In this document: one piece after another, positions 43,497 through 53,525 of the stretch | Layout of the letters: every line of letters starts with the position of its first letter | Position numbering within the stretch: the stretch's first letter is position 1 | Assembly: GCF_011398925.1 (NCBI RefSeq) | Contig: NZ_AP022842.1 | Location: 3,212,001 to 3,276,000, forward strand | From: Bacillus sp. KH172YL63 | Lineage (GTDB): Bacteria; Bacillota; Bacilli; Bacillales; Bacillaceae_B | DNA length: 64,000 nucleotides | Direction: 5' to 3' | Notes under the pieces: model-generated | What the model saw: the letters and a program-made list of their open reading frames with translations, nothing else | What the model was told of the DNA's origin: nothing | The model's database searches: none | Position numbers and translations under genes: made by a program

Positions 43497-44159
43497 CTAT
43501 CGTCTTCTGATGATTTTTGATAATGTATTTCCTGCTGTCTGCAGTCCCTGTACCATCACGATTAAAATGATGACCGTCACGATCATGACGGATGTTTCAA
43601 ATCGCTGATATCCGTACGCAATGGCGAGATCCCCGAGGCCTCCGCCTCCGACTGCCCCGGCCATGGCCGATGCCCCGACAAGGCCGATTGTTGCGATTGT
43701 GATATTCAGGACCAGCGTACTCAATGCTTCCGGAATGAGGATCCCGAAGATGATCTGCCACGGCCCGGCCCCCATGGACTCGGCCGCTTCGATGACACCC
43801 GGTTCCACTTCAAGGAGCGAACTTTCTACGAGTCTTGCAATATACGGCGCCGCAAACACGACAAGCGGCACTACGGCGGCTGCCGTTCCGATCGATGTGC
43901 CGACGACCAACCGGGTAAACGGGATGATCGCGACCATCAGGATGATGAACGGGATTGACCGGAACACGTTGATGATGCTGCTCAATACGGAAAAGACGGC
44001 TTTGTTTTCAAGCAAGTGTCCCTTTCTCGTCACCACGACGATGATGCCGAGGGGAAGGCCGATGAGTGTGGCGAACAGAAGGGAAAATGACACCATCGCC
44101 ACCGTATCCCATGTCGCTTCAATAATCTTTGGCCAAAACAATTCCCAATTAACTTGCAC
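43497..44159 (-). CDS. metI: Methionine ABC transporter permease MetI
   Basis: 220 residues, five helices; GTG start overlapping the end of metN by 11 bases. ESSLLEVEPGVIEAAESMGAGP is the EAA loop that contacts MetN. N-terminal helix TVAMVSFSLLFATLIGLPLG. Confidence 0.94.
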   Translation of the reverse strand: MQVNWELFWPKIIEATWDTVAMVSFSLLFATLIGLPLGIIVVVTRKGHLLENKAVFSVLSSIINVFRSIPFIILMVAIIPFTRLVVGTSIGTAAAVVPLVVFAAPYIARLVESSLLEVEPGVIEAAESMGAGPWQIIFGILIPEALSTLVLNITIATIGLVGASAMAGAVGGGGLGDLAIAYGYQRFETSVMIVTVIILIVMVQGLQTAGNTLSKIIRRR

Positions 44160-45174
44160 GCTTCTCCACCTCGCTTACGAATAATCTGTTTCTCCAATAA
44201 TCCAGGATTTCTTCCGTTTCGCTCCTGCTGCCGATGATCTGGACGATGAGATTCCCGAACGGCTGACCCTGGAGTTCTGTGATCTGCCCGAATAATACAT
44301 TGATGTGGGCGTTGAATGCTTTTGCCGTCTCAGAAAGGATCGGCAGGCCCGTTGAATCTCCTTTGAAAATGAGGCGGCAGATGCGCCCTTCCTTGCTGTC
44401 ATTCAATTTGTCGAGAACCGATGCCGGCAGCTGATCATTCATGACACTTTTCACAAAGTTTTTCGTCGTCGAGGTCTGCGGGTTGGAAAAGATATCGAAC
44501 ACGCTTCCCTCTTCCACGATTTCTCCATTTTCCATCACCGCGACCTTATCACAGATTTCCCGGATGACCCCCATTTCGTGGGTGATCATCACGATTGTAA
44601 TCCCATACTCCCCGTTGATTCTTTTTAATAGATTCAAAATTGATTCGGTCGTCTGGGGATCCAGTGCGGATGTGGCTTCATCGCAGAGGAGAATCGATGG
44701 CGAGGTCGCGAGGGCCCTTGCAATCCCCACCCTCTGCTTCTGACCGCCTGACAGCTCGTCGGGATAATGCTTCGCTTTATCTTCAAGTCCGACAAACGCG
44801 AGCAGCTCCTTGACCCTTTCACTGATTCTTTCTTTCGGCCACTTTGCAAGTTTCAGAGGATAGGCGATATTCCCTGCCACCGTCCGGGACTGAAACAGAT
44901 TGAAATGCTGAAAAATCATCCCGATCCGGTGCCGCTCCTTCCTCAGATCAATCGCCGACTGATCCTTCAGGCTGCGCCCCTCTATGAAAATATCACCCGA
45001 TGAAGGTTTCTCTAAAAAATTGAGACAGCGGACAAGCGTGCTCTTACCCGCCCCGCTGAACCCGATCACGCCATAAATCTCTCCCTTTTTCACCTCGAAG
45101 GAAACATTCTTCAAAGCATTGAACGGGCCATCCTTCGTCTCGAATACTTTCGTAACATTCTGAACTCTGATCAT
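44149..45174 (-). CDS. metN: Methionine ABC transporter ATPase MetN
   Basis: 341 residues. Walker A GFSGAGKST, signature LSGGQKQRV, Walker B LLCDEATSALD, H-loop ITHEMG. The C-terminal about 75 residues (GRICRLIFKGDS onwards) form the NIL/ACT-like domain that binds methionine and inhibits transport. First gene after the SAM riboswitch. Confidence 0.95.
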   Translation of the reverse strand: MIRVQNVTKVFETKDGPFNALKNVSFEVKKGEIYGVIGFSGAGKSTLVRCLNFLEKPSSGDIFIEGRSLKDQSAIDLRKERHRIGMIFQHFNLFQSRTVAGNIAYPLKLAKWPKERISERVKELLAFVGLEDKAKHYPDELSGGQKQRVGIARALATSPSILLCDEATSALDPQTTESILNLLKRINGEYGITIVMITHEMGVIREICDKVAVMENGEIVEEGSVFDIFSNPQTSTTKNFVKSVMNDQLPASVLDKLNDSKEGRICRLIFKGDSTGLPILSETAKAFNAHINVLFGQITELQGQPFGNLIVQIIGSRSETEEILDYWRNRLFVSEVEKRAS

Positions 45175-45227
45175 ACAGGACCTTCTCCTTTCGCTATGTA
45201 TCCCTCTTACTTGTGCTTCCGGCCAAA

Positions 45228-45392
45228 TAAAAAGTGCCCCCCTTCATAAGAAGAGAGGCACAAATATGTAGATGTCCCGCTCTTCTCATCTTTCAAGTCA
45301 CATGACTTGATGGAATTGGCACGGTATTCATAAGAACCCGTTGCCGAGGTATCACAGGGCCAGTCCCTCCACCTCTCTGGATAAGAAGATAT
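45228..45392 (-). promoter_or_regulatory. SAM-I (S-box) riboswitch with terminator
   Basis: On the minus strand: CTTATCCAGAGAGGTGGAGG (P1/P2 conserved), GGACTGGCCC, TGATACCTCGGCAACGGG (core), then terminator GTGCCTCTCTTC-TTAT-GAAGGGGGGCAC followed by TTTTTATTT, ending about 55 bases before metN. SAM binding should stop transcription, turning off methionine uptake. Confidence 0.93.
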
Positions 45393-45494
45393 CGCTTTAT
45401 TTAATTAATGTTATGATGCGTTTAAGCATTAGGGTAATGGTATAGAATTTCCATTGTTTTGTCAACAATGTTTTTTGAATATTTCATAAAAAAC

Positions 45495-45527
45495 TAAAAA
45501 AACTGACCTCAGTCCCAGGTCAGTTTT
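45495..45527 (-). terminator. Terminator of the MgtC-like gene
   Basis: Minus strand AAAACTGACCT, a 7-base loop, AGGTCAGTTTTTTT, after the MgtC-like stop codon. Confidence 0.85.
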
Positions 45528-45562
45528 GCCGCAATACAGAGTGGAGAGAACAGGCCTCGAGC

Positions 45563-46084
45563 CTACTCCTCATCCTTCTCTTCCTCTTTTTTCTTCCCCA
45601 TCTTCGGCAGCCGCACGGTCGTCATTTCCCGGCCTTCGAAAATGTTCCCGATCCTCGTTGTGATGAACGTGATCAGGGTCGCGAAGATGACGATCCCGTA
45701 AAAGCCTGCCCCAATCCCGATGCCGACTCCACCTACGTAGAAAATCATCGCAGCGGAAGTGAGTCCTTTTACCCGCAGGCCGTCTTTCAGGATCACACCT
45801 GCACCTAAGAAACCGAGCCCTGAAACAATTTGAGCCGCAAGCCGGAAAGGATCCATCATCTTCCCGCTGTCCGGCTGACTGAGCATTTCCGCCCCTTCAA
45901 TCGAAACGATCGTGATCAACGTACAGGCCACCGCCACATACGTATACGTCTTTAACCCGGCAGGCTTATTTTTCGACGTCCGGTCCCATCCGATCACGAA
46001 CCCCAGGACCGCACTCACCACAATCCGGAAATAAATATCATGCTGCCAGAAGAAATCCGCTGCTGCATTGATGATATGTGACAT
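45563..46084 (-). CDS. MgtC/SapB-family membrane protein
   Basis: 173 residues, CAGGAGGAGG before ATG. Helices VSAVLGFVIGWDRTSKNKPAGLKTY (conserved GxxxGxxRexxxkpAGlrT motif), RLAAQIVSGLGFLGAGVILKDG and VRGLTSAA-type loop (VKGLTSAAMIFYVGGVG). Linked with Mg2+ limitation or membrane homeostasis in relatives; transport is unproven. Lys/Glu-rich C-terminal tail. Confidence 0.9.
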   Translation of the reverse strand: MSHIINAAADFFWQHDIYFRIVVSAVLGFVIGWDRTSKNKPAGLKTYTYVAVACTLITIVSIEGAEMLSQPDSGKMMDPFRLAAQIVSGLGFLGAGVILKDGLRVKGLTSAAMIFYVGGVGIGIGAGFYGIVIFATLITFITTRIGNIFEGREMTTVRLPKMGKKKEEEKDEE

Positions 46085-46174
46085 GGTGAAATCCTCCTCC
46101 TGTGCAAGATTGCTATTTGTAGAATATTTTTTTATCGTACACTAAATTATTTGGTATAGAAAGGGTATGTCCAA

Positions 46175-46384
46175 TCAAAGTTTCCCTTCTCTCATCCACT
46201 TGGCAATCCTTATACTGCCAAATACCGCTACTGCAAATATCAATATAGTAAGAACGACATATATGTTCAATGCGTTGATTTCTTTCAAACCATTATCATT
46301 TCCGGTTATAAAAAATAGTAAAAAGATAAAAGCAATGTAAAGCAGCACATTGGGTATAATCCAGGCTATTCTCAATTTATTCAT
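46175..46384 (-). CDS. Small two-helix membrane protein
   Basis: 69 residues from ATG 46384 (AAAGGTGTTGTGT). Two helices (IAWIIPNVLLYIAFIFLLFF and NIYVVLTILIFAVAVFGS) and a basic end (RIAKWMREGKL). Function unknown. Confidence 0.65.
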   Translation of the reverse strand: MNKLRIAWIIPNVLLYIAFIFLLFFITGNDNGLKEINALNIYVVLTILIFAVAVFGSIRIAKWMREGKL

Positions 46385-46405
46385 ACACAACACCTTTATT
46401 ATAAG

Positions 46406-46885
46406 TTATTCCCCATGTATCGGCAGCACCGTCGAATCCTTGATCTCCCGGAGCGCCAGGCTCGTCTGGATCTTCGTGATCCCCATTTCATTCAGCCGCC
46501 TGATAAAGAGCTCGAGCCCCTTCCGATCCTTGCAGGCAACCTTCAGGAGATAATCGTATTCGCCGGTCAGACAGTGACATTCCAGCACCTCTTTCATCGC
46601 TTCCAATGTCTCCTCCAACGCTTCCAGCTTCTCCGTCCGGTGCTCATTCGTACTCATGAACACAAAGCACAACAAATCAAATCCAAGCTTCTCATGATTC
46701 AGTATCGCTACCTGCTTCTTGATATACCCTTCCGTCTCCAGCCGCTTGATCCGAGCATGCACGGCCGGTGCGGACAAATTGACCCGCTTCGATAATTGGA
46801 GATTGCTCAAATTCCCGTCCTTTTGCAGCAAATCCAACAGCTGCAGATCCATCTGATCAAGGACCCTGCTTACGATTGATTCCAT
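46406..46885 (-). CDS. Lrp/AsnC-family transcriptional regulator
   Basis: 159 residues, AAAGGAGACACCAACC before ATG. N-terminal winged helix (LDLLQKDGNLSNLQLSKRVNLSAPAVHARIKRL) and C-terminal RAM domain (HCLTGEYDYLLKVACKDRKGLELFI). Effector probably an amino acid; targets unknown. Adjacent small membrane gene might be co-transcribed. Confidence 0.9.
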   Translation of the reverse strand: MESIVSRVLDQMDLQLLDLLQKDGNLSNLQLSKRVNLSAPAVHARIKRLETEGYIKKQVAILNHEKLGFDLLCFVFMSTNEHRTEKLEALEETLEAMKEVLECHCLTGEYDYLLKVACKDRKGLELFIRRLNEMGITKIQTSLALREIKDSTVLPIHGE

Positions 46886-47010
46886 GGTTGGTGTCTCCTT
46901 TGTGAATTGATGGTTAGTGGGGGGATGTGGTGAAGATTTGTAAGCTATTACTCTTAGATACTTTTATTTGTTTTGGTTTTTCTTATTATACTATACAACA
47001 AAGAAGCACA

Positions 47011-47034
47011 AGCACGGGGACGGTTCCCGTGCTT
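47011..47034. repeat. Short GC palindrome family, copy 2
   Basis: AGCACGGGGACGGTTCCCGTGCT, near-perfect dyad. It lies between the Lrp gene and the MNIO cluster. Confidence 0.75.
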
Positions 47035-47134
47035 CCATACACTTTGACGTAATGCAGGCGTGCAAAATCATGGTTCATCCATTTTTGCGTGTTTACCTGC
47101 TTCATTTTACGAAAGGTTCAACTACTTACCATAC

Positions 47135-47172
47135 AAAAAAGACGCCTGTCCTCATAAGGATCAGGCACACAT
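47135..47172 (-). terminator. Terminator of the MNIO cluster
   Basis: Minus strand GCCTGATCCTTATGAGGACAGGC followed by GTCTTTTTT, just beyond the MNIO stop codon. Confidence 0.8.
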
Positions 47173-47175
47173 AAA

Positions 47176-47991
47176 CTATAGAATATAATTGGCTTGAAAC
47201 ATTTGTTTTAATCTTTTTAAATCTTCTTTTACATCTTTGGTTCCTTCAAGATTCATATCTCTTTCAAGGTTAATCGTATGTACAGGGGCATTCTCCAGAA
47301 TATATTCCAGTAATCTCCAGACTTCTTCATGAACAGGCTCAGCATGTGAATCGATGAGAATACCATCCATTTCTGTGAAACCGGCAATATGCAAGTGGTT
47401 AATCTTTTCCTTTGGTAGAGCATCAAAGAATTGATAAGGATCATAATCGTGATTGACTGAATTTACATAGAGATTAGAAACATCCAACAACATACCTATC
47501 TCTGTTTCGTTTAATAATCTGACCCAGAACTCACATTCACTATAAACATTATTGGGCCAGTTGAATTGGTATGTGATATTTTCCAGATAAAGTTGCCTGC
47601 CAACATGGTGGTGAAAGTGACGCGCTTTGTCTTTAAGTAAATGGATGGATTCGTCTATAAAGAAGGATGGAATAAAGTCAGTCAAAGAATATTCCCCCAC
47701 ACTGCTAACGGCAAGGTGATCCGTAATAAAGGGGGCATTGATCTCGTTACTCAGCTCTATCAGCCTATCCAATTTCCTTTCATTGATATCTTCGAATGTA
47801 GCCATAGATAAAGACAAACTATGAGCCACCAGGGTAAAGTCCCTTTTCAGCCTGGAAAGTTCTTCATTCGTACTTGGATGATAAAACAATTCAGGTGATA
47901 TTTCTAAGAAATCCACCATTTCCTTTAAATCGTCCAGTTGATCTGCAAATTCATTTCGGTAGCTTATTCCTACCCCCCTTAAACTATGCAA
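47176..47991 (-). CDS. DUF692 multinuclear non-haem iron oxidase (MNIO), RiPP-modifying
   Basis: 271-282 residues. TTG 47991 (AAGAAGGTG upstream) fits best; ATG 48024 without a site is the alternative. TIM-barrel DUF692 pattern: GVGISYRNE, DFLEISPE, LVAHSLSLS (His), ITDHLAVS (His), LENI (Glu), LLDVSNLYVN (Asp, Asn), HLHIAG (His), DSHAEPVHEEVW (Asp, His) and INLERD (Glu). All expected iron ligands are present. MNIOs such as MbnB, TglH and BufB oxidise Cys or Asp in short peptides. Last gene of the four-gene cluster; overlaps the MFS gene. Confidence 0.9.
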   Translation of the reverse strand: MHSLRGVGISYRNEFADQLDDLKEMVDFLEISPELFYHPSTNEELSRLKRDFTLVAHSLSLSMATFEDINERKLDRLIELSNEINAPFITDHLAVSSVGEYSLTDFIPSFFIDESIHLLKDKARHFHHHVGRQLYLENITYQFNWPNNVYSECEFWVRLLNETEIGMLLDVSNLYVNSVNHDYDPYQFFDALPKEKINHLHIAGFTEMDGILIDSHAEPVHEEVWRLLEYILENAPVHTINLERDMNLEGTKDVKEDLKRLKQMFQANYIL

Positions 47992-49213
47992 TGGAGTCAC
48001 CTTCTTCACGAATCGTTTTCTCATTTGATAAGAGAATTTTAAATGAATAGTTCACCCGGAAAAGGGAGAGTATGGTAAAGATGATCAAGAAAGATACAAC
48101 TCCGAATTCATCTATGATCAAGTAAGAAATCGGTATAAAGATTAGTTTACTAAGGTCGCTTAGAGCAATGGTAATGGATTTGTATTTGGCTTTCATATGG
48201 TTAGGGGCTTTAATGAATATTTCAGCCCGTAACAGATTATTGATGATCGGGGTCCCGAATGTAAATAATGAAAAGCCGATCAAATAAAAGATTGGAACGG
48301 GCGATGCAGTCATCATGATTAATCCCCCGACAATGAGGGCGTTTGAAGTGATGAGGAGCTGTAACTTTGACCACTTGTAAACATCCACTTTTGATAAAAG
48401 CATGTTGGCAAGGATCGATCCGATGCCTCCAATGATCCAGAACCCTGAGAATACGGCTGTACTTGCATCGTACCTTAAATCTAACACGAATACAGAAACG
48501 CTTATAATAATCGGGGTAATCATACCATTGATCGTCTCTAATATACTTAACTCGGATAATGTTTTACTCTTCCAGACACTGATAAAAGATTCCTTCAGAT
48601 TATGCAATATTTTAGTTGGATTTCTATCGCTCACTGTATCGATCGTTTCATCTTTCACGTAAGATTTCTGAATAAAAAGGACGATTCCCAAACTAATAAC
48701 ATATGTAGCTAAATCGAAAAGCAATGCATTGGCCGCAAAGAGTTTGAAAAATACCGGCCCAAGACCAAACCCAAGTGTTTTTGCAGACAAGAACCAAGAA
48801 TTTCTGGCACTAATGTGCTTGACTAAGTTATCCCCTTCAATTAACTTATTCATCCAGATGTTCTGTGCTAAAGCATTGGCTGAGCCAAATAACCCATTGA
48901 GTACCATAAGGGGAACAAGTAGATAGAACAGTTCTTGCTGAATGGCCAGGAAAAGGAAGGAAAAGGTAAAGATTGATCCAATGATGCACAGGATCATAAT
49001 CGTGATTTTCTTGTATTTGTCTACGTAATATCCACCAAAGAAGGTTGTGACGATCCTTGCTATGGAGCTGGTGATAAATAAGAAACTGGTAAATAAAGGG
49101 GAACCTGTCAGGTAAAAGGCCAGGATCGGAAGGCCGGTCCATGTCAATGCGGATCCAAAGCTATTAATCGTACTTAGCGCAACGAGGAGATTCACAATTT
49201 TAGTGTGTTTCAT
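47984..49213 (-). CDS. MFS transporter, probable exporter of the modified peptide
   Basis: 409 residues, 12 helices (SALTWTGLPILAFYLTGSPLF at the N-terminus; FFGGYYVDKYKKITIM is the loop 2-3 MFS motif). It overlaps the partner gene upstream by 14 bases (AGAAAGG inside that gene is the ribosome site) and the MNIO downstream by 8-41 bases. Exporter role is inferred from location. It resembles the MdfA/LmrP-like or YfiS-type MFS families. Confidence 0.85.
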   Translation of the reverse strand: MKHTKIVNLLVALSTINSFGSALTWTGLPILAFYLTGSPLFTSFLFITSSIARIVTTFFGGYYVDKYKKITIMILCIIGSIFTFSFLFLAIQQELFYLLVPLMVLNGLFGSANALAQNIWMNKLIEGDNLVKHISARNSWFLSAKTLGFGLGPVFFKLFAANALLFDLATYVISLGIVLFIQKSYVKDETIDTVSDRNPTKILHNLKESFISVWKSKTLSELSILETINGMITPIIISVSVFVLDLRYDASTAVFSGFWIIGGIGSILANMLLSKVDVYKWSKLQLLITSNALIVGGLIMMTASPVPIFYLIGFSLFTFGTPIINNLLRAEIFIKAPNHMKAKYKSITIALSDLSKLIFIPISYLIIDEFGVVSFLIIFTILSLFRVNYSFKILLSNEKTIREEGDSIA

Positions 49214-49904
49214 ATGATTCTGCCTTTCTAATAAGAAGATTAGGTATGTTCATCTGGATGATAAGTTCAGCGTTCTCTATATATTCAATCTTTCTGGACT
49301 CTTCTTTCGGAGAATAAATCAAATAGTCTACGGAAGGGTCATTTGTATCTGCAATCTCTTTTAGCCATTGGTAAATGTCACTTGTGATTTCATATATTTT
49401 TGTACTCTCTAAATAATGAGGCTGTACAAATAAAAAGTAAGTAGAATCAAACTCATCCTGAAACATTTCTGCTTCATACGGAAAAGAATAATCCATTTTA
49501 AGAACACTGGAAGATTTTGGGGTACTGGCTACTTTGTATTTTTCAATTTCATAATGGGTATATTGAATTAATTTCTCATCTAGTTGAGAAGATGTAAGAT
49601 ATGTATAAAATGCGCTCAGATCAGCTTCTACAGATTGCCCTTTAAATTCGTTTGCTGAAAAATAACCGGTCATGAGTTCTGTGAATCTTGAAGCCCCTAA
49701 ATATTCTAGCGTTTTAGGCAGTACAGTTACAAATCTTCTTGTCCTGCTGTTTATGGTAAAGGATCTGAACCTATTAAACCCCTCAATATGTAAACCATAG
49801 AACAGGGAACGATGATCTGCTTCTCGAACTTCCTTAAAATCTCTTTCATTCACTGTTGCCTTCATAAGCTTTAACTGTGCTTCACGTAAATCCGTTCTAT
49901 TCAT
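49200..49904 (-). CDS. Unrecognised protein, probable MNIO partner
   Basis: 234 residues, ATG with AAGGGGGATAAG. Begins MNRTDLREAQLKLMKATVNE, a helical start reminiscent of DUF2063/HvfC-like MNIO partners, followed by HIEGFNRFRSFTINSRTRRF, then a helix-rich middle with FTELMTGYFSANEF and a C-terminal part with YLIYSPKEESRKIEY. MNIO enzymes normally need a peptide-binding partner (MbnC, TglI, BufC); the position between precursor and oxidase suggests this role, but the sequence is too divergent for me to assign by motif. Confidence 0.75.
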   Translation of the reverse strand: MNRTDLREAQLKLMKATVNERDFKEVREADHRSLFYGLHIEGFNRFRSFTINSRTRRFVTVLPKTLEYLGASRFTELMTGYFSANEFKGQSVEADLSAFYTYLTSSQLDEKLIQYTHYEIEKYKVASTPKSSSVLKMDYSFPYEAEMFQDEFDSTYFLFVQPHYLESTKIYEITSDIYQWLKEIADTNDPSVDYLIYSPKEESRKIEYIENAELIIQMNIPNLLIRKAESYETH

Positions 49905-49923
49905 CTTATCCCCCTTAACAAAC

Positions 49924-49949
49924 GAAAGAGGCAGGAATCTGCCTCTTTA
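49924..49949 (-). terminator. Partial terminator after the precursor gene
   Basis: AAAGAGGCAG-ATTC-CTGCCTCTTT, a perfect 10-bp stem followed by CGTTTGTT. A leaky terminator here would give excess precursor transcript over enzyme transcript, as is usual for RiPP clusters. Confidence 0.75.
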
Positions 49950-49973
49950 GCCTTTTTGCTAGTATGCATGTCA

Positions 49974-50054
49974 TTATTTAATTGGAGCAGCTCCATCGTC
50001 CATGCAGATCTCTTGAATCTTTTTCACTTGCTCTTCTTTAACTAATTTCATCAT
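49974..50054 (-). CDS. 26-residue RiPP precursor-like peptide, newly called
   Basis: ATG ATG at 50054 and 50051 behind AAGGGAGGTC at six bases. Leader-like part MMKLVKEEQVKKIQE is a charged helix; the end is ICMDDGAAPIK with one Cys (Cys17 of 26) directly followed by Met-Asp-Asp. It is co-directional with, and 70 bases before, the partner gene, separated by a partial terminator. Length is like methanobactin precursors. Modification at Cys or Asp by the MNIO is inferred from family chemistry. Confidence 0.7.
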   Translation of the reverse strand: MMKLVKEEQVKKIQEICMDDGAAPIK

Positions 50055-50075
50055 GAATGACCTCCCTTATGTAAA

Positions 50076-50381
50076 ATATTAGACTAATTACCGCGGATAA
50101 AAGTCCTATACAATGTAACATTATGTAAATCTATGAACAATTTGGATTTTTATGTATGTACACTTGTCAGGGCGGACTATTAAGCAGGATACTCCAATAT
50201 ATTTGTATATTCGACATTTTTTATAACTCTAGTTATATTTTATAGATGTTACCAGATTTTACAAAGTGGATTAGCCGGAATAATATGTTCAAAAATGTGG
50301 CTTAAACTATCATGTAAGATAGTTTGGACAGATTGTAAAAGCATCCTTAACCCTCCTGTACTTTACTTCAAAATCAACCCT
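50076..50381. other. Promoter region and gene-free stretch upstream of the cluster
   Basis: AT-rich, with an inverted repeat AAACTATC-ATGTAA-GATAGTTT near 50305-50326. A TTGTTC/TACATT pair 17 bases apart is a weak promoter candidate about 65 bases before the precursor. No other gene seen. Confidence 0.4.
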
Positions 50382-50572
50382 CTAATATATATAATAAGCA
50401 GTAAACGTTAATCCGTTTTGAACTATGAGAATCAGGATCTGGTCGATTATTTGAAAAAAATCCTCCTGTCTCACGTTAAATATAGCCAACATAAAAATAA
50501 AGAGTATGATGATGGAAGAATAATATATTCTTTTATATGTAAAGCCCTTTTTTGAAAAATAGCCAAAAAGGT
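50382..50572 (-). pseudogene. Two-helix membrane fragment, probably broken
   Basis: Encodes FGYFSKKGFTYKRIYYSS followed by two helices (IIILFIFMLAIF and IIDQILILIVQNGLTFTAYYIY). The N-terminal extension passes through GC-palindrome repeats and has no ribosome site, so I think the original start was lost to repeat insertion. Could be a small gene with a missed start. Confidence 0.35.
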
Positions 50573-50597
50573 GAGCACGGGGACGGTTCTTGTGCTT
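50573..50597. repeat. Short GC palindrome family, copy 3
   Basis: GAGCACGGGGACGGTTCTTGTGCTT. Confidence 0.7.
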
Positions 50598-50651
50598 CTT
50601 GTCATTCAACAGAATGAACCAATGTGAACAAGGGGGAACACCTTTCATAGA

Positions 50652-50713
50652 GAAGCAACAGAACCGTCCCCATGCTCTCAAAAACCAAGCCACGGTACCT
50701 GTCCCCGTGGCTT
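50652..50713. repeat. Short GC palindrome family, copies 4 and 5
   Basis: A half-like GAAGCAACAGAACCGTCCCC element at 50652 is followed by AGCCACGGTACCTGTCCCCG-type palindrome at 50687-50713. The latter ends next to the ElaA stop codon and may serve as its terminator. Confidence 0.65.
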
Positions 50714-51159
50714 CAATAATTCTTCAACACCATATCAATATGCGGAATCCCATCATCCAGATAGGTTTCCGTTACCGCCCTGAATCCAAACGATTCATAG
50801 AACGCCCGCAAATATTCCTGCGCCTGGATCTTCACCGTTTGTTCCCCCCACTCATCATGGATGAAAGCCAATCCTCTTGTCATTAACTCGCTTGCGAAAC
50901 CTTTTCCACGATAGGCTTCCTTCACGAGGACTCTTCCTATGGACGGTTCTGTGTATGAAACGCCTGCAGGTAGAAGCCGGGCATATGCAACCACCTCACC
51001 GTTCTCTTCTTTATAAAGGTGATGGGCGTGCAGATCTTTTCCGTCGACTTCAAGGTAGGGACAATTTTGTTCCACTACAAAGACCTGGGTTCTTACTTGT
51101 AGCATTTCGTATAGTTCGTAATTTGATAGCTCATTAAAGCTCTTCACCTTCCAGCTCAT
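50713..51159 (-). CDS. ElaA-like GNAT acetyltransferase
   Basis: 148 residues. VRTQVFVVEQNCPYLEVDGKD is the ElaA family signature; acetyl-CoA site GRVLVKEAYRGKGFASELM; FYESFGF. Substrate unknown. ATG preceded by GTAGGGGTG. Confidence 0.88.
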   Translation of the reverse strand: MSWKVKSFNELSNYELYEMLQVRTQVFVVEQNCPYLEVDGKDLHAHHLYKEENGEVVAYARLLPAGVSYTEPSIGRVLVKEAYRGKGFASELMTRGLAFIHDEWGEQTVKIQAQEYLRAFYESFGFRAVTETYLDDGIPHIDMVLKNY

Positions 51160-51335
51160 ATATAGAACACCCCTACTATATTATTTTTTGAGTAACAACC
51201 GGACACCTTGATCTGTTTACCTCAGCTTCCTGGAACGATGATATTCATCAATGGAGTTATTATAGCAGTTTCTTTAGGACAATGGAGACCGTGTATCCTG
51301 GCTACTTTGATTGGAAAGTCGCGCTTCTCCCCCAC

Positions 51336-51372
51336 TAAAAAAAGCCTCACTCCATATAATGAAGTGAAGCTC
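51336..51372 (-). terminator. Terminator of the sugar-acid operon
   Basis: Minus strand AGCTTCACT, an 11-base loop, AGTGAGGCT, TTTTTTTAG, after the cupin gene. Confidence 0.8.
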
Positions 51373-51380
51373 TGTCTACT

Positions 51381-51662
51381 CTATCCCTGCAGCAGATCCT
51401 TTCGAATCGGGGAAAACATATCCAATATCACACATTCTTCTAGTACTTTCACTCTGTGCTTAATGCTCGATGGGATATATTGCGTATCCCCTTGCTTCAG
51501 GACTCTCTTGTTTCCATTCACTTCAAATTCAACCTGTCCTTTTTCTATGAAACTTAATTGTTCTTCCGGATGCTGATCTATCTCACCGACAAATCCCTCT
51601 GCCAGTTCAACTTTTACTAGCATCATCGAGCCTTCACTGCTCAATACTTTTCTTTTTACCAT
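51381..51662 (-). CDS. Small cupin protein, KdgF-like
   Basis: 93 residues, a single cupin barrel: QHPEEQLSFIEKGQVEF (motif 1), LKQGDTQYIPSSIKHRV (motif 2). KdgF catalyses linearisation of 4,5-unsaturated uronates to 2-keto-3-deoxy sugars. Final gene of the operon; the function fits the uronate theme but is inferred. Confidence 0.75.
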   Translation of the reverse strand: MVKRKVLSSEGSMMLVKVELAEGFVGEIDQHPEEQLSFIEKGQVEFEVNGNKRVLKQGDTQYIPSSIKHRVKVLEECVILDMFSPIRKDLLQG

Positions 51663-51707
51663 TGCTGCCCACTCTCCTTTTTATTTCTGTTACCCAAGAA
51701 AAAACGA

Positions 51708-52997
51708 TCAGAATAAGCTTGGGTTTATTAATTTAGGAAGATAGAATGCGACTTCCGGTAAGAATGCGACAAATAATAAAACGACGAGAACAATCAATAT
51801 ATACGGCATGACTGCAGAGAGCGACTTCTCGATGCTGAGTTTTCCTATTTTAGCTGCCAACAGGAGGCATAACCCATATGGAGGTGTGACGAGTCCAATA
51901 GCGAGCGTCATCACCACAATTAGACCAAGATGCACTGGCTCCATTCCGAATAGGTTTGCTGTTGGCAAGATGACCGGAACGAATAAGATCATAGCTGGAA
52001 TCGCGTCCATGAACGTACCGACGAAAAGGAAGAATGCAATAATGATCAGGATGAATACCCATTCTGCCCCGACATTGTTCACGAAGAAATCTTGTGCCTT
52101 AACTGCTAATTGATAATAGCTCATCAGTTCACCCAGCGCGCTTGCAGCTGCAAGGGCAAACAATGAAAGCGAACTCAATGCCAGTGTGTCTTTGATGATC
52201 TTTGGAAGATCCGATAGTTTCAATGTTTTATAGAAAAACATACAAATCAGTAACGTATACAGGCAAGCAACGGCTGCAGCTTCCGTTGGGGTGAAGAATC
52301 CTGAAATGATCCCCCCAATAATGATGATCGGTGTGATCAAAGCAGGCACTGTTTCGTACACCAGCTTAAAGAATTGACCGAATGTAGCCCTTTTCGACCT
52401 CGGATAGCCCTTTTTTAACGCCATGATATAAATGAAGAGCATCATGCCTAGACCGATCAGTACGCCGGGAACGATTCCCCCGAGGAATAGTGCACCCACC
52501 GATGCATTAGTCAAACCGGCGAAGATGATCATCGGGATACTAGGCGGGATGATGACGCCGATCGTTGAAGAAGCTGCCGTCACGCCGACAGCGGTTTCCG
52601 TATCATACCCCTGCTTCTTCATGTTCGGTATCAGGATTTTCCCGACTCCGGCTGTATCAGCCTGGGCAGCACCTGATACCCCTGCAAAAATCATGGAAAC
52701 CAAGATGTTTGCGTGGGCGAGGCCCCCTCTGATATGACCGACCATCGTCAATGAAAGGTCAATTAGCTTTTGAGAAATCTTCCCGTGGTTCATTAAGTTG
52801 GCGGCCAGGATAAATAGAGGCACGGCAAGCAAGACAAACGAATCTATTCCATTCAGCATTTTCATCGGGACCGTCACCTCAGGAATATATGGAACGGTAA
52901 ATATACCAAGAAGGGCAATGATGCCGATGACAAAGGCAATTGGTACGCCGATCAGCATCAGAATAAGGAATAATACAACCAAGCCTATACCAATCAT
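51708..52997 (-). CDS. TRAP transporter large permease (DctM/SiaM-like)
   Basis: 429 residues, about 12 helices. FAGVSGAAQADTAGVGKILIP and SIPMIIFAGLTNASVGALF are family motifs. Forms the Na+-coupled sugar-acid importer with the two following gene products (upstream on the map). Confidence 0.93.
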   Translation of the reverse strand: MIGIGLVVLFLILMLIGVPIAFVIGIIALLGIFTVPYIPEVTVPMKMLNGIDSFVLLAVPLFILAANLMNHGKISQKLIDLSLTMVGHIRGGLAHANILVSMIFAGVSGAAQADTAGVGKILIPNMKKQGYDTETAVGVTAASSTIGVIIPPSIPMIIFAGLTNASVGALFLGGIVPGVLIGLGMMLFIYIMALKKGYPRSKRATFGQFFKLVYETVPALITPIIIIGGIISGFFTPTEAAAVACLYTLLICMFFYKTLKLSDLPKIIKDTLALSSLSLFALAAASALGELMSYYQLAVKAQDFFVNNVGAEWVFILIIIAFFLFVGTFMDAIPAMILFVPVILPTANLFGMEPVHLGLIVVMTLAIGLVTPPYGLCLLLAAKIGKLSIEKSLSAVMPYILIVLVVLLFVAFLPEVAFYLPKLINPSLF

Positions 52998-53470
52998 GCC
53001 TGTGCCCCCCTTCCCTTAAGTGATTTAATAGTAGCCCACAATTGACTAGCCGAGTAAATCATCATGGTCGCCCCCATGATTGGGATGGAAATCCATACAT
53101 ACCCCATTTTCATTTCCGGGATGGACGTCCAGTTATAATGCCAGAAATTCTGCACTGTCTCGATTCCGTAGTAGAACAGCGCAAATGAAAATAAGAATAT
53201 GACAGCATCAATGACAATCAGCAACAATTGTTTGGACATCCCTTCCAGTTTCCCTAGAAGGAAATCAAAACTGAAATGTTCCCTTTTGCTCACCATGACG
53301 GAAGCCCCCATAAAGACTGACCAAATGAATGAGTAATTGGCAACTTCTTCTGTCCATATGACCGATATGCCAAGATGTCTTGTAGTGATTTGAACGATGA
53401 TGGCAATAAAAAATATCACTAAGAAAATAGCACCGATGGTCATCTGAATTTTTTCAAGAGCTTTAATCAT
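52994..53470 (-). CDS. TRAP transporter small permease (DctQ-like)
   Basis: 158 residues, four helices; LGISVIWTEEVANYSFIWSVFMGAS is the DctQ signature. Overlaps the large permease gene by 4 bases. Confidence 0.92.
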   Translation of the reverse strand: MIKALEKIQMTIGAIFLVIFFIAIIVQITTRHLGISVIWTEEVANYSFIWSVFMGASVMVSKREHFSFDFLLGKLEGMSKQLLLIVIDAVIFLFSFALFYYGIETVQNFWHYNWTSIPEMKMGYVWISIPIMGATMMIYSASQLWATIKSLKGRGAQA

Positions 53471-53494
53471 GATTGTCTTCCCCCTTTCAATATT

Positions 53495-53525
53495 AAAGGG
53501 AAGAACAAATCAACTCTTCCCTTTA
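53495..53525 (-). terminator. Partial terminator between dctP and dctQ
   Basis: AAAGGGAAGA-N10-TCTTCCCTTT. A leaky stop here is usual after a binding-protein gene, because more DctP than permease is needed. Confidence 0.6.

Follow-up and report, generated by a model that had tools for sequence, protein, structure and literature searches.

The window analysed here is a 64,000-nucleotide stretch of the Bacillus sp. KH172YL63 genome (contig NZ_AP022842.1, positions 3,212,001 to 3,276,000). It contains a compact gene cluster that resembles those producing ribosomally synthesized and post-translationally modified peptides (RiPPs) with the help of a multinuclear non-heme iron-dependent oxidative enzyme (MNIO, DUF692). 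The open reading frame listing and the sequence place all cluster genes on the minus strand, in the order tiny peptide, hairpin, 234-residue protein, major facilitator superfamily (MFS) transporter and MNIO (Table 1). A preliminary description of this DNA had proposed a compact MNIO RiPP cluster of four co-directional, overlapping genes, and the RiPP-type assignment is borne out, the MNIO keeping its ligands and the 234-residue protein looking partner-like. The last place of the MNIO and the lack of a protease in the set, both pointed out earlier, are real and recur in the related loci described below. The genes are indeed co-directional, but only the last three overlap, and the peptide gene lies 69 nt from the next one.

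Table 1 Features of the MNIO cluster and its borders, in window coordinates
Feature	Position	Strand	Remarks
REP-like palindromes	50573-50712	.	GGGGACGGTTC at 50579, inverted at 50661; upstream of the cluster
Tiny candidate precursor peptide gene	50054-49974	-	26 aa, MMKLVKEEQVKKIQEICMDDGAAPIK; 25 aa from the second ATG; Cys-Met-Asp-Asp near the C-terminus
Hairpin between peptide and partner genes	49948-49925	-	10-bp stem, weak T-tail; AAAGAGGCAG-ATTC-CTGCCTCTTT; terminator-like in the scan
Putative MNIO partner protein, PME-type 2-like, 234 aa	49904-49200	-	Predicted helical DUF2063-like N-terminal domain and C-terminal region
MFS transporter, 409 aa	49213-47984	-	PF07690, 73.6 bits; overlaps the partner gene by 14 bp
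MNIO (DUF692) oxidase, 282 aa from ATG	48024-47176	-	PF05114; overlaps the MFS gene
Bulged hairpin followed by a T-run	47166-47135	-	T-run TCTTTTTT; just past the MNIO stop; -13.2 kcal/mol, z -1.4
REP-like palindrome	47010-47034	.	AAGCACGGG..CCCGTGCTT; just downstream of the cluster

The MNIO is a member of PF05114, scoring 232.7 bits against a cut-off of 25. Its likelier start is the TTG at 47991, giving a protein of 271 aa, because AAGGTGA precedes this codon and the database copies P0002 and P0003 start there. When mapped by hand on the alignment, H68, H103, E148, D181, N184, H212, D225, H227 and E254 coincide with the nine iron ligands of TglH, and all nine are identical (ligand list from PMC10880893). 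This confirms the earlier statement that the DUF692 protein has every expected ligand. The same nine residues are kept in the MNIOs of L022 and L023, two loci from other Bacilli that are treated below. The window MNIO matches five NCBIfam equivalog models, HvfB, BufB, ApyH, MbnB and ChrH, without reaching the cut-off of any (186.8, 179.6, 98.2, 61.2 and 46.6 bits against 360, 310, 400, 325 and 600), and the MNIOs of L022, L023 and L060 also stay below. The MNIO of L060 (6554-7363, minus strand), from another family of the class, has a Tyr in place of one iron-ligand His. A DUF692 family protein of B. licheniformis (P0009) has its segments in permuted order relative to P0005 and is probably the product of a rearranged gene or of an assembly error.

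The candidate precursor gene is preceded by a strong, near-perfect Shine-Dalgarno sequence (AAGGGAGGT), located 5 nt before the first ATG and 8 nt before the second. The N-terminal part of the peptide, MKLVKEEQVKK, is basic, and inspection by eye, made without a signal-peptide program, found no hydrophobic signal stretch in the 26 residues. The C-terminal region reads ...ICMDD..., with seven further residues after the first Asp. The Cys-Asp-Asp motif of the preliminary description was thus a misreading of Cys-Met-Asp-Asp.

The 234-residue protein returned nothing in Pfam, NCBIfam and PDB sequence searches, and it has no match to PF09836. The DUF2063 profile, run against the window's own genome, gave only one sub-threshold match, which lies elsewhere. 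The single-sequence structure model was uninformative (pLDDT 38.8). From a profile alignment and a moderate-confidence structure model, the protein looks like a relative of the MNIO partner proteins NGO1945, TglI and MbnC. Partners of PME-type 2 are reported to lack the DUF2063 Pfam signature, yet to have the fold of NGO1945 (3dee) and to accompany precursors without a signal peptide (PMC12452194). The window protein, with a modelled DUF2063/RRE-like fold, no DUF2063 Pfam signature and a gene within an MNIO cluster, would fall into this type. It shares with these partners the fold, as modelled, without the signature, and differs from them in that no relative was detected by sequence in the protein collection.

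The transporter belongs to PF07690 (gathering score 33.4); it also matches TIGR00900 with 73.7 bits, which is below the cut-off of that model. Eleven hydrophobic segments were counted in the protein, and it is probably an exporter. A protein 95% identical to it (P0049) lies on a contig of 739,787 bases. The MNIO P0003, 86% identical to that of the window, also lies on a contig of 739,787 bases, and we therefore infer that both genes are on one contig of a second strain, the closest to the window.

The hairpin between the peptide gene and the partner gene had been described as a partial terminator, a view supported by its terminator-like listing in the scan. The RNA of 49905-49976 folds with a z score of -2.8, and none of 200 shuffles was as stable; the hairpin is probably a partial terminator or the 3' end of the peptide mRNA. 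A terminator had also been placed after the MNIO gene. The hairpin and T-run are present there, but their fold is unremarkable (19 of 200 shuffles fold as well) and the terminator scan did not list them, so that this element is a possible, weak candidate for the operon terminator.

The same gene order is found in four other loci of Bacilli: L022, L030 and L031 (family f13) and L023 (family f46). One or two peptides of 20-21 aa come first, then a hairpin and a small protein, which has 138-140 aa in L022, L023 and L030. Next are a multi-spanning membrane protein (10-12 hydrophobic stretches counted in the same three loci) and an MNIO, the latter interrupted in L031. The MNIO gene overlaps the membrane protein gene in L022, L023 and L031; in L030, where its start is unsure, it begins at the end of that gene or up to about 90 bases further on. 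The peptides end in ...TCYD(W), for which we call these loci and their kin the CYD group. L022 and L031 encode MRVKVIKKSRKKPAKATCYDW and L030 encodes MQVKVIKKSGKKLAKETCYDW, whereas L023 carries two tandem peptides, MRVKTIKKSNKKFANETCYD and MRVRTIKKSNKKFANETCYD, each with its own ribosome-binding site. The L023 peptide ends exactly in Asp, and in L022 the Asp is followed by Trp. L023, L030 and L031 have good ribosome-binding sites. Alignment of L022 with L030 shows TCYDW unchanged, with 4 of 21 codons altering the amino acid by an eye count. The hairpins at the equivalent place in L022, L023, L030 and L031 have z scores of -3.8 to -6.5. Together with the window this makes five of five loci, and each hairpin region folds better than all of its 200 shuffles. 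The stem is preserved in both L022 and L030, although its sequence differs between them. L031 still has its peptide, its hairpin and the genes for the small protein and the membrane protein, but its MNIO (6482-5310) is broken after residue 47, next to a transposase-like frame.

DUF692 relatives without the peptide frame would have spoken against a precursor, as the preliminary description recognised. In every locus with readable upstream DNA (the window, L022, L023, L030 and L031), a tiny Cys-containing peptide precedes the set. The contigs of G047 and G505/L060 break off a short way upstream and show only the end of the preceding frame; these two loci stand outside this count. In G047 the MNIO matches only over residues 1-134, with a stop. 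When the L030 peptide was searched against 348 genomes of the order, two places had E values below 0.1 (8.3e-5 and 2.3e-4), both in G247 beside an MNIO, and the next was at 0.199. Nine genomes matched in this search; they do not include those of L022, L030 and L031, which may lie outside the sample. G000's own peptide was missed, as expected from its divergence. Conservation of the peptide in relatives, the other point raised earlier, holds within the group of L022, L023, L030 and L031, which the window peptide resembles only moderately. The ungapped alignment of MKLVKEEQVKKIQEICMD (window) with VKVIKKSGKKLAKETCYD (CYD peptides) scores 33, a value equalled by 103 of 5000 shuffles, suggestive of kinship without proving it.

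The MNIOs of the window and of the CYD loci are homologous, with about 28% identity. In a tree of 34 rows, the window group and the CYD group, of four rows each, are both solid. The rows comprise the window, 17 of 47 database proteins, 7 of the 14 loci of a broader contig scan, L022, L023, L030, L060-L063, L065 and L066; three of them (P0004, P0005 and L022) are of unusual composition. The MNIO of L060 belongs to the CYD group. It could not be demonstrated that the operons of the window and of L022, L023 and L030 descend as a whole from one ancestor, the comparisons of small protein and transporter being negative. The layout is shared; shared descent of the whole operon is plausible.

The cluster is rare. 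The window MNIO, or an alignment led by it, matches at E 1e-10 one of 36 genomes of the genus, its own, and none of the 35 others, and at E 1e-20 it matches 3 of 397 genomes of the order (itself, G393 and G247). With the MNIOs found in the order or class searches as queries, 4 of 41 genomes of f13, 1 of 34 of f46 and 1 of 245 of f72 were matched. Weaker MNIO-profile matches, among 12 of 398 and 18 of 397 genomes, are not counted as members; of the 11 regions retrieved from among these, 8 were inspected, L068-L070 being left out. A scan of genome contigs with the four closest MNIOs gave 126 pattern stretches, none confirmed as a relative, and the broader scan gave 14 loci at 28-37% identity. 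Viral contigs, scanned with three MNIO alignments and two peptide patterns, gave none, and neither did the phage collection. Among plasmids, identity to the window MNIO is at most 35.3% in the matches listed (best 20 of 352), and identity to the L023 MNIO at most 26.2% (best 20 of 235). Plasmids gave no match to the partner and none to the L022 cluster DNA.

Other arrangements of MNIO genes were seen in the course of these searches. L062 (5326-5574) carries tandem short peptides of 34 aa and L061 (5736-5813) a peptide of 25 aa. All start with MIKKVA and have several Cys, with CGxDxC motifs in L062, and they precede partner-like and MNIO genes; an ABC transporter-looking frame follows in L062. 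These two loci likely represent another MNIO RiPP family in Bacilli. In L065 (3216-7072), a frame that looks by eye like an asparagine synthetase lies by an MNIO and a partner-like protein, recalling nitrilobacillin clusters. In L066 (6831-9655), from another genome of the order, an MNIO, a partner-like protein and an MFS-looking membrane protein stand in a row, again as judged by eye, with the components in a different order.

The base composition and the borders of the cluster bear on its origin. The GC content of the island is 37%, that of the window 42.7%; at third codon positions (GC3), the three larger cluster genes have 0.29-0.46 and five neighbouring genes 0.49-0.70. In G025 and G019, both of the same genus, the DctM-cupin-GNAT side is present without the cluster; no AsnC-type regulator was found beside these genes in either, and no clean insertion point is shown. 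The sequence GGGGACGGTTC brackets the cluster, occurring three times in the window (47016, 50579 and 50661) against 0.02 expected. With up to one mismatch allowed, the genome has 14 copies of a longer form, GCACGGGGACGGTTC, spread over three areas (L104-L106). Within one of these areas lies the frame L106:4318-5100, which by eye resembles a RAYT-type transposase. The palindromes look like a repetitive extragenic palindromic (REP/REPIN) system. Low GC, patchy presence and the bracketing palindromes fit, without showing, horizontal gain of the operon, which we regard as probable. Upstream of the peptide gene, a 31-aa frame (MLLQSVQTILHDSLSHIFEHIIPANPLCKIW, 50344-50249, minus strand) with AGGAGG before it contains in its DNA the palindrome AAACTATC-TTACAT-GATAGTTT; it may represent a further small gene or an operator.

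We interpret the cluster as a minimal MNIO RiPP operon, in which MNIO and partner would oxidise the C-x-D region of the peptide (Cys, any residue, Asp) and the MFS protein would export the product, and we put the probability of this reading at roughly 0.78. It draws on the family match and nine ligands of the MNIO, on the profile and model of the partner, and on the four loci with the same order and C-x-D peptides. Further arguments are the tandem peptides of L023, the conservation of TCYDW, the restriction of the clear peptide matches to G247, the hairpins in all five loci and the joint presence of transporter and MNIO in a second strain. The low GC and GC3 and the absence from the 35 other genomes of the genus are also counted in its favour. 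In the proposed pathway, the hairpin would halt most transcripts past the peptide gene, so that peptide is made in excess over the enzymes, and the gene overlaps would couple translation. The basic N-terminus would serve as a leader held by the 234-residue partner. The partner would form a complex with the MNIO, and the latter, by means of its iron cluster and O2, would oxidise the peptide at the conserved C-x-D region. This is in line with reports that MNIOs work with a partner protein and carry out two- or four-electron oxidations on precursor peptides (PMC12452194; PMC12257519). Because no protease is seen in the set, the product might be exported whole or after trimming by a housekeeping protease. 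It might serve in metal binding, antibiosis or signalling; that it is a small secreted antimicrobial or metallophore is a guess.

Several observations weigh against this reading. With about 2% of shuffles as good, the window peptide is modestly similar to the CYD peptides, and the comparison draws on distant loci, as no close copy is readable. The ribosome-binding site in L022 (GAAAGGGGGG) is purine-rich but imperfect, and the automated peptide filter missed the L022 peptide. The small proteins of L022, L023 and L030 resemble neither the window partner nor the partner profile. Pfam matches nothing in the membrane proteins of L022 and L023, nor do these clearly resemble the window MFS protein. 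In the tree, the window and CYD groups join with L061-L063 at 90/87, below the firm level. As for the partner, its alignment-based model has a mean pLDDT of 57 and the Foldseek matches are not significant by E value; the model is also not independent of the profile match, because its alignment held putative partner proteins. No homologue of the window partner was found among 148 candidates, even though a strain with a 95% identical transporter and an 86% identical MNIO exists. The partner is therefore missing, unpredicted or very diverged in that strain.

Within the proposed operon, the single Cys is in our analysis slightly favoured as the modified residue, Cys being the usual MNIO target. 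The Asp two residues further on is kept as a less likely candidate, as it is equally conserved and as PesH, a characterised MNIO of the Bacillus group, hydroxylates Asp (PMC13060819). The enzyme would then perform a beta-hydroxylation as in PesHI or the conversion of a C-terminal Asp as in ApyHI, leaving the Cys for a metal, a disulfide or a later step. This alternative gains from the peptides found, in which the Asp at Cys+2 is conserved to the same degree as the Cys, and from L023, whose terminal Asp is the kind of residue on which ApyHI acts (PMC12452194). It loses from the predominance of Cys as the modified residue in most known MNIO substrates (PMC12452194). A strict C-terminal Asp reaction, moreover, does not fit all members, given the residues that follow the Asp in the window and L022 peptides.

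Two further explanations would deprive the peptide of its role as substrate. An attenuator leader peptide, with the MNIO acting on another peptide, would look alike, having a short frame, a strong ribosome-binding site and then a hairpin. We consider it improbable: no run of a single amino acid was seen (no search for alternative pairings was made), both peptide copies of L023 are complete and have separate ribosome-binding sites, TCYD(W) is conserved at the amino-acid level across L022, L030, L031 and L023, and the small-frame listings show no other small frame common to these loci. Still more improbable is a decaying or chance assembly, in which a solitary MNIO sits by a transporter and the peptide frame is fortuitous. 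The rarity and patchiness of the cluster (1 of 36 genus genomes) and the decay seen elsewhere (the interrupted MNIO of L031 and the truncated match in G047) would suit it, but none of the four frames in the window is damaged, each has a good ribosome-binding site, the MNIO retains every ligand, and both the layout and the C-x-D peptide recur in four other loci.

The cluster shares with known MNIO RiPP clusters (those of methanobactin, MbnABC, pearlin, TglHI, aminopyruvatide, ApyHI, and bufferin, BufABC, and PbsCD) a PF05114 MNIO, a partner and an adjacent precursor, and the pbs cluster, which encodes the biphenomycin-like PbsCD system, also has an MFS transporter (PMC12257519). It differs in that the precursors of the window family have just 20-26 aa with a single Cys in C-x-D, and in that no other tailoring enzyme or protease is seen. 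The order peptide-hairpin-partner-transporter-MNIO contrasts with precursor-MNIO-partner in bufABC (PMC12452194). The marks of bufferins and oxazolins, a precursor with a Sec signal and the order precursor-MNIO-DUF2063, are not found here, the MNIO being last and the partner lacking PF09836. Nitrilobacillin clusters (pes, Peribacillus simplex) likewise combine a Bacillus-group MNIO, a partner, a short precursor and a transporter, but they add an asparagine-synthetase-like enzyme, an HExxH enzyme, the MNIO-like PesX and a pair of M16 peptidases, and they have a C-terminal R(V/T)DN motif (PMC13060819). Among the frames at 44,000-53,500, judged by eye and without a Pfam run on the neighbours, no pes-type enzyme was recognised, and R(V/T)DN is absent from the peptide. 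The layout resembles that of microcin C (mcc) in its logic, with a tiny precursor gene, a terminator hairpin before the enzyme genes that keeps them below the precursor in amount, and a dedicated pump for the modified peptide. In that system a terminator separates mccA from mccB, the precursor has seven residues and MccC is the pump (PMC6495379). Here, in contrast, an iron-dependent oxidation is proposed, and the precursor is longer, with a leader-like basic N-terminus. No MccB-like enzyme was recognised by eye at 44,000-53,500, and Pfam gives no such assignment for any of the four cluster proteins.

A literature search, mostly without full text, recognised no description of a tiny-peptide MNIO cluster of the CYD or CMDD kind. 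The recurrence of the layout points to a small family of peptide natural products that has apparently not been described. Many minor types of MNIO precursor are said to await identification, a task described as not straightforward (PMC12452194). The preliminary description had spoken of a new class; the evidence carries a new family or variant of MNIO RiPP cluster, and a class is unproven. A new minimal class in Bacilli would be defined by a C-x-D peptide of 20-26 aa, one MNIO, a fast-evolving partner, a dedicated transporter, no protease or second tailoring enzyme, a microcin C-like terminator and a C-x-D chemistry new for MNIOs. We hold this wider proposal only tentatively, at somewhat less than even odds.

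MNIO enzymes carry out unusually varied peptide oxidations, and the family described here would offer a very small, defined system composed of one peptide with one Cys, an MNIO, a partner and an exporter. It makes the assignment of peptide to enzyme directly testable and may provide one of the shortest MNIO substrates. The family also suggests that partner proteins diverge too fast for sequence searches to catch.

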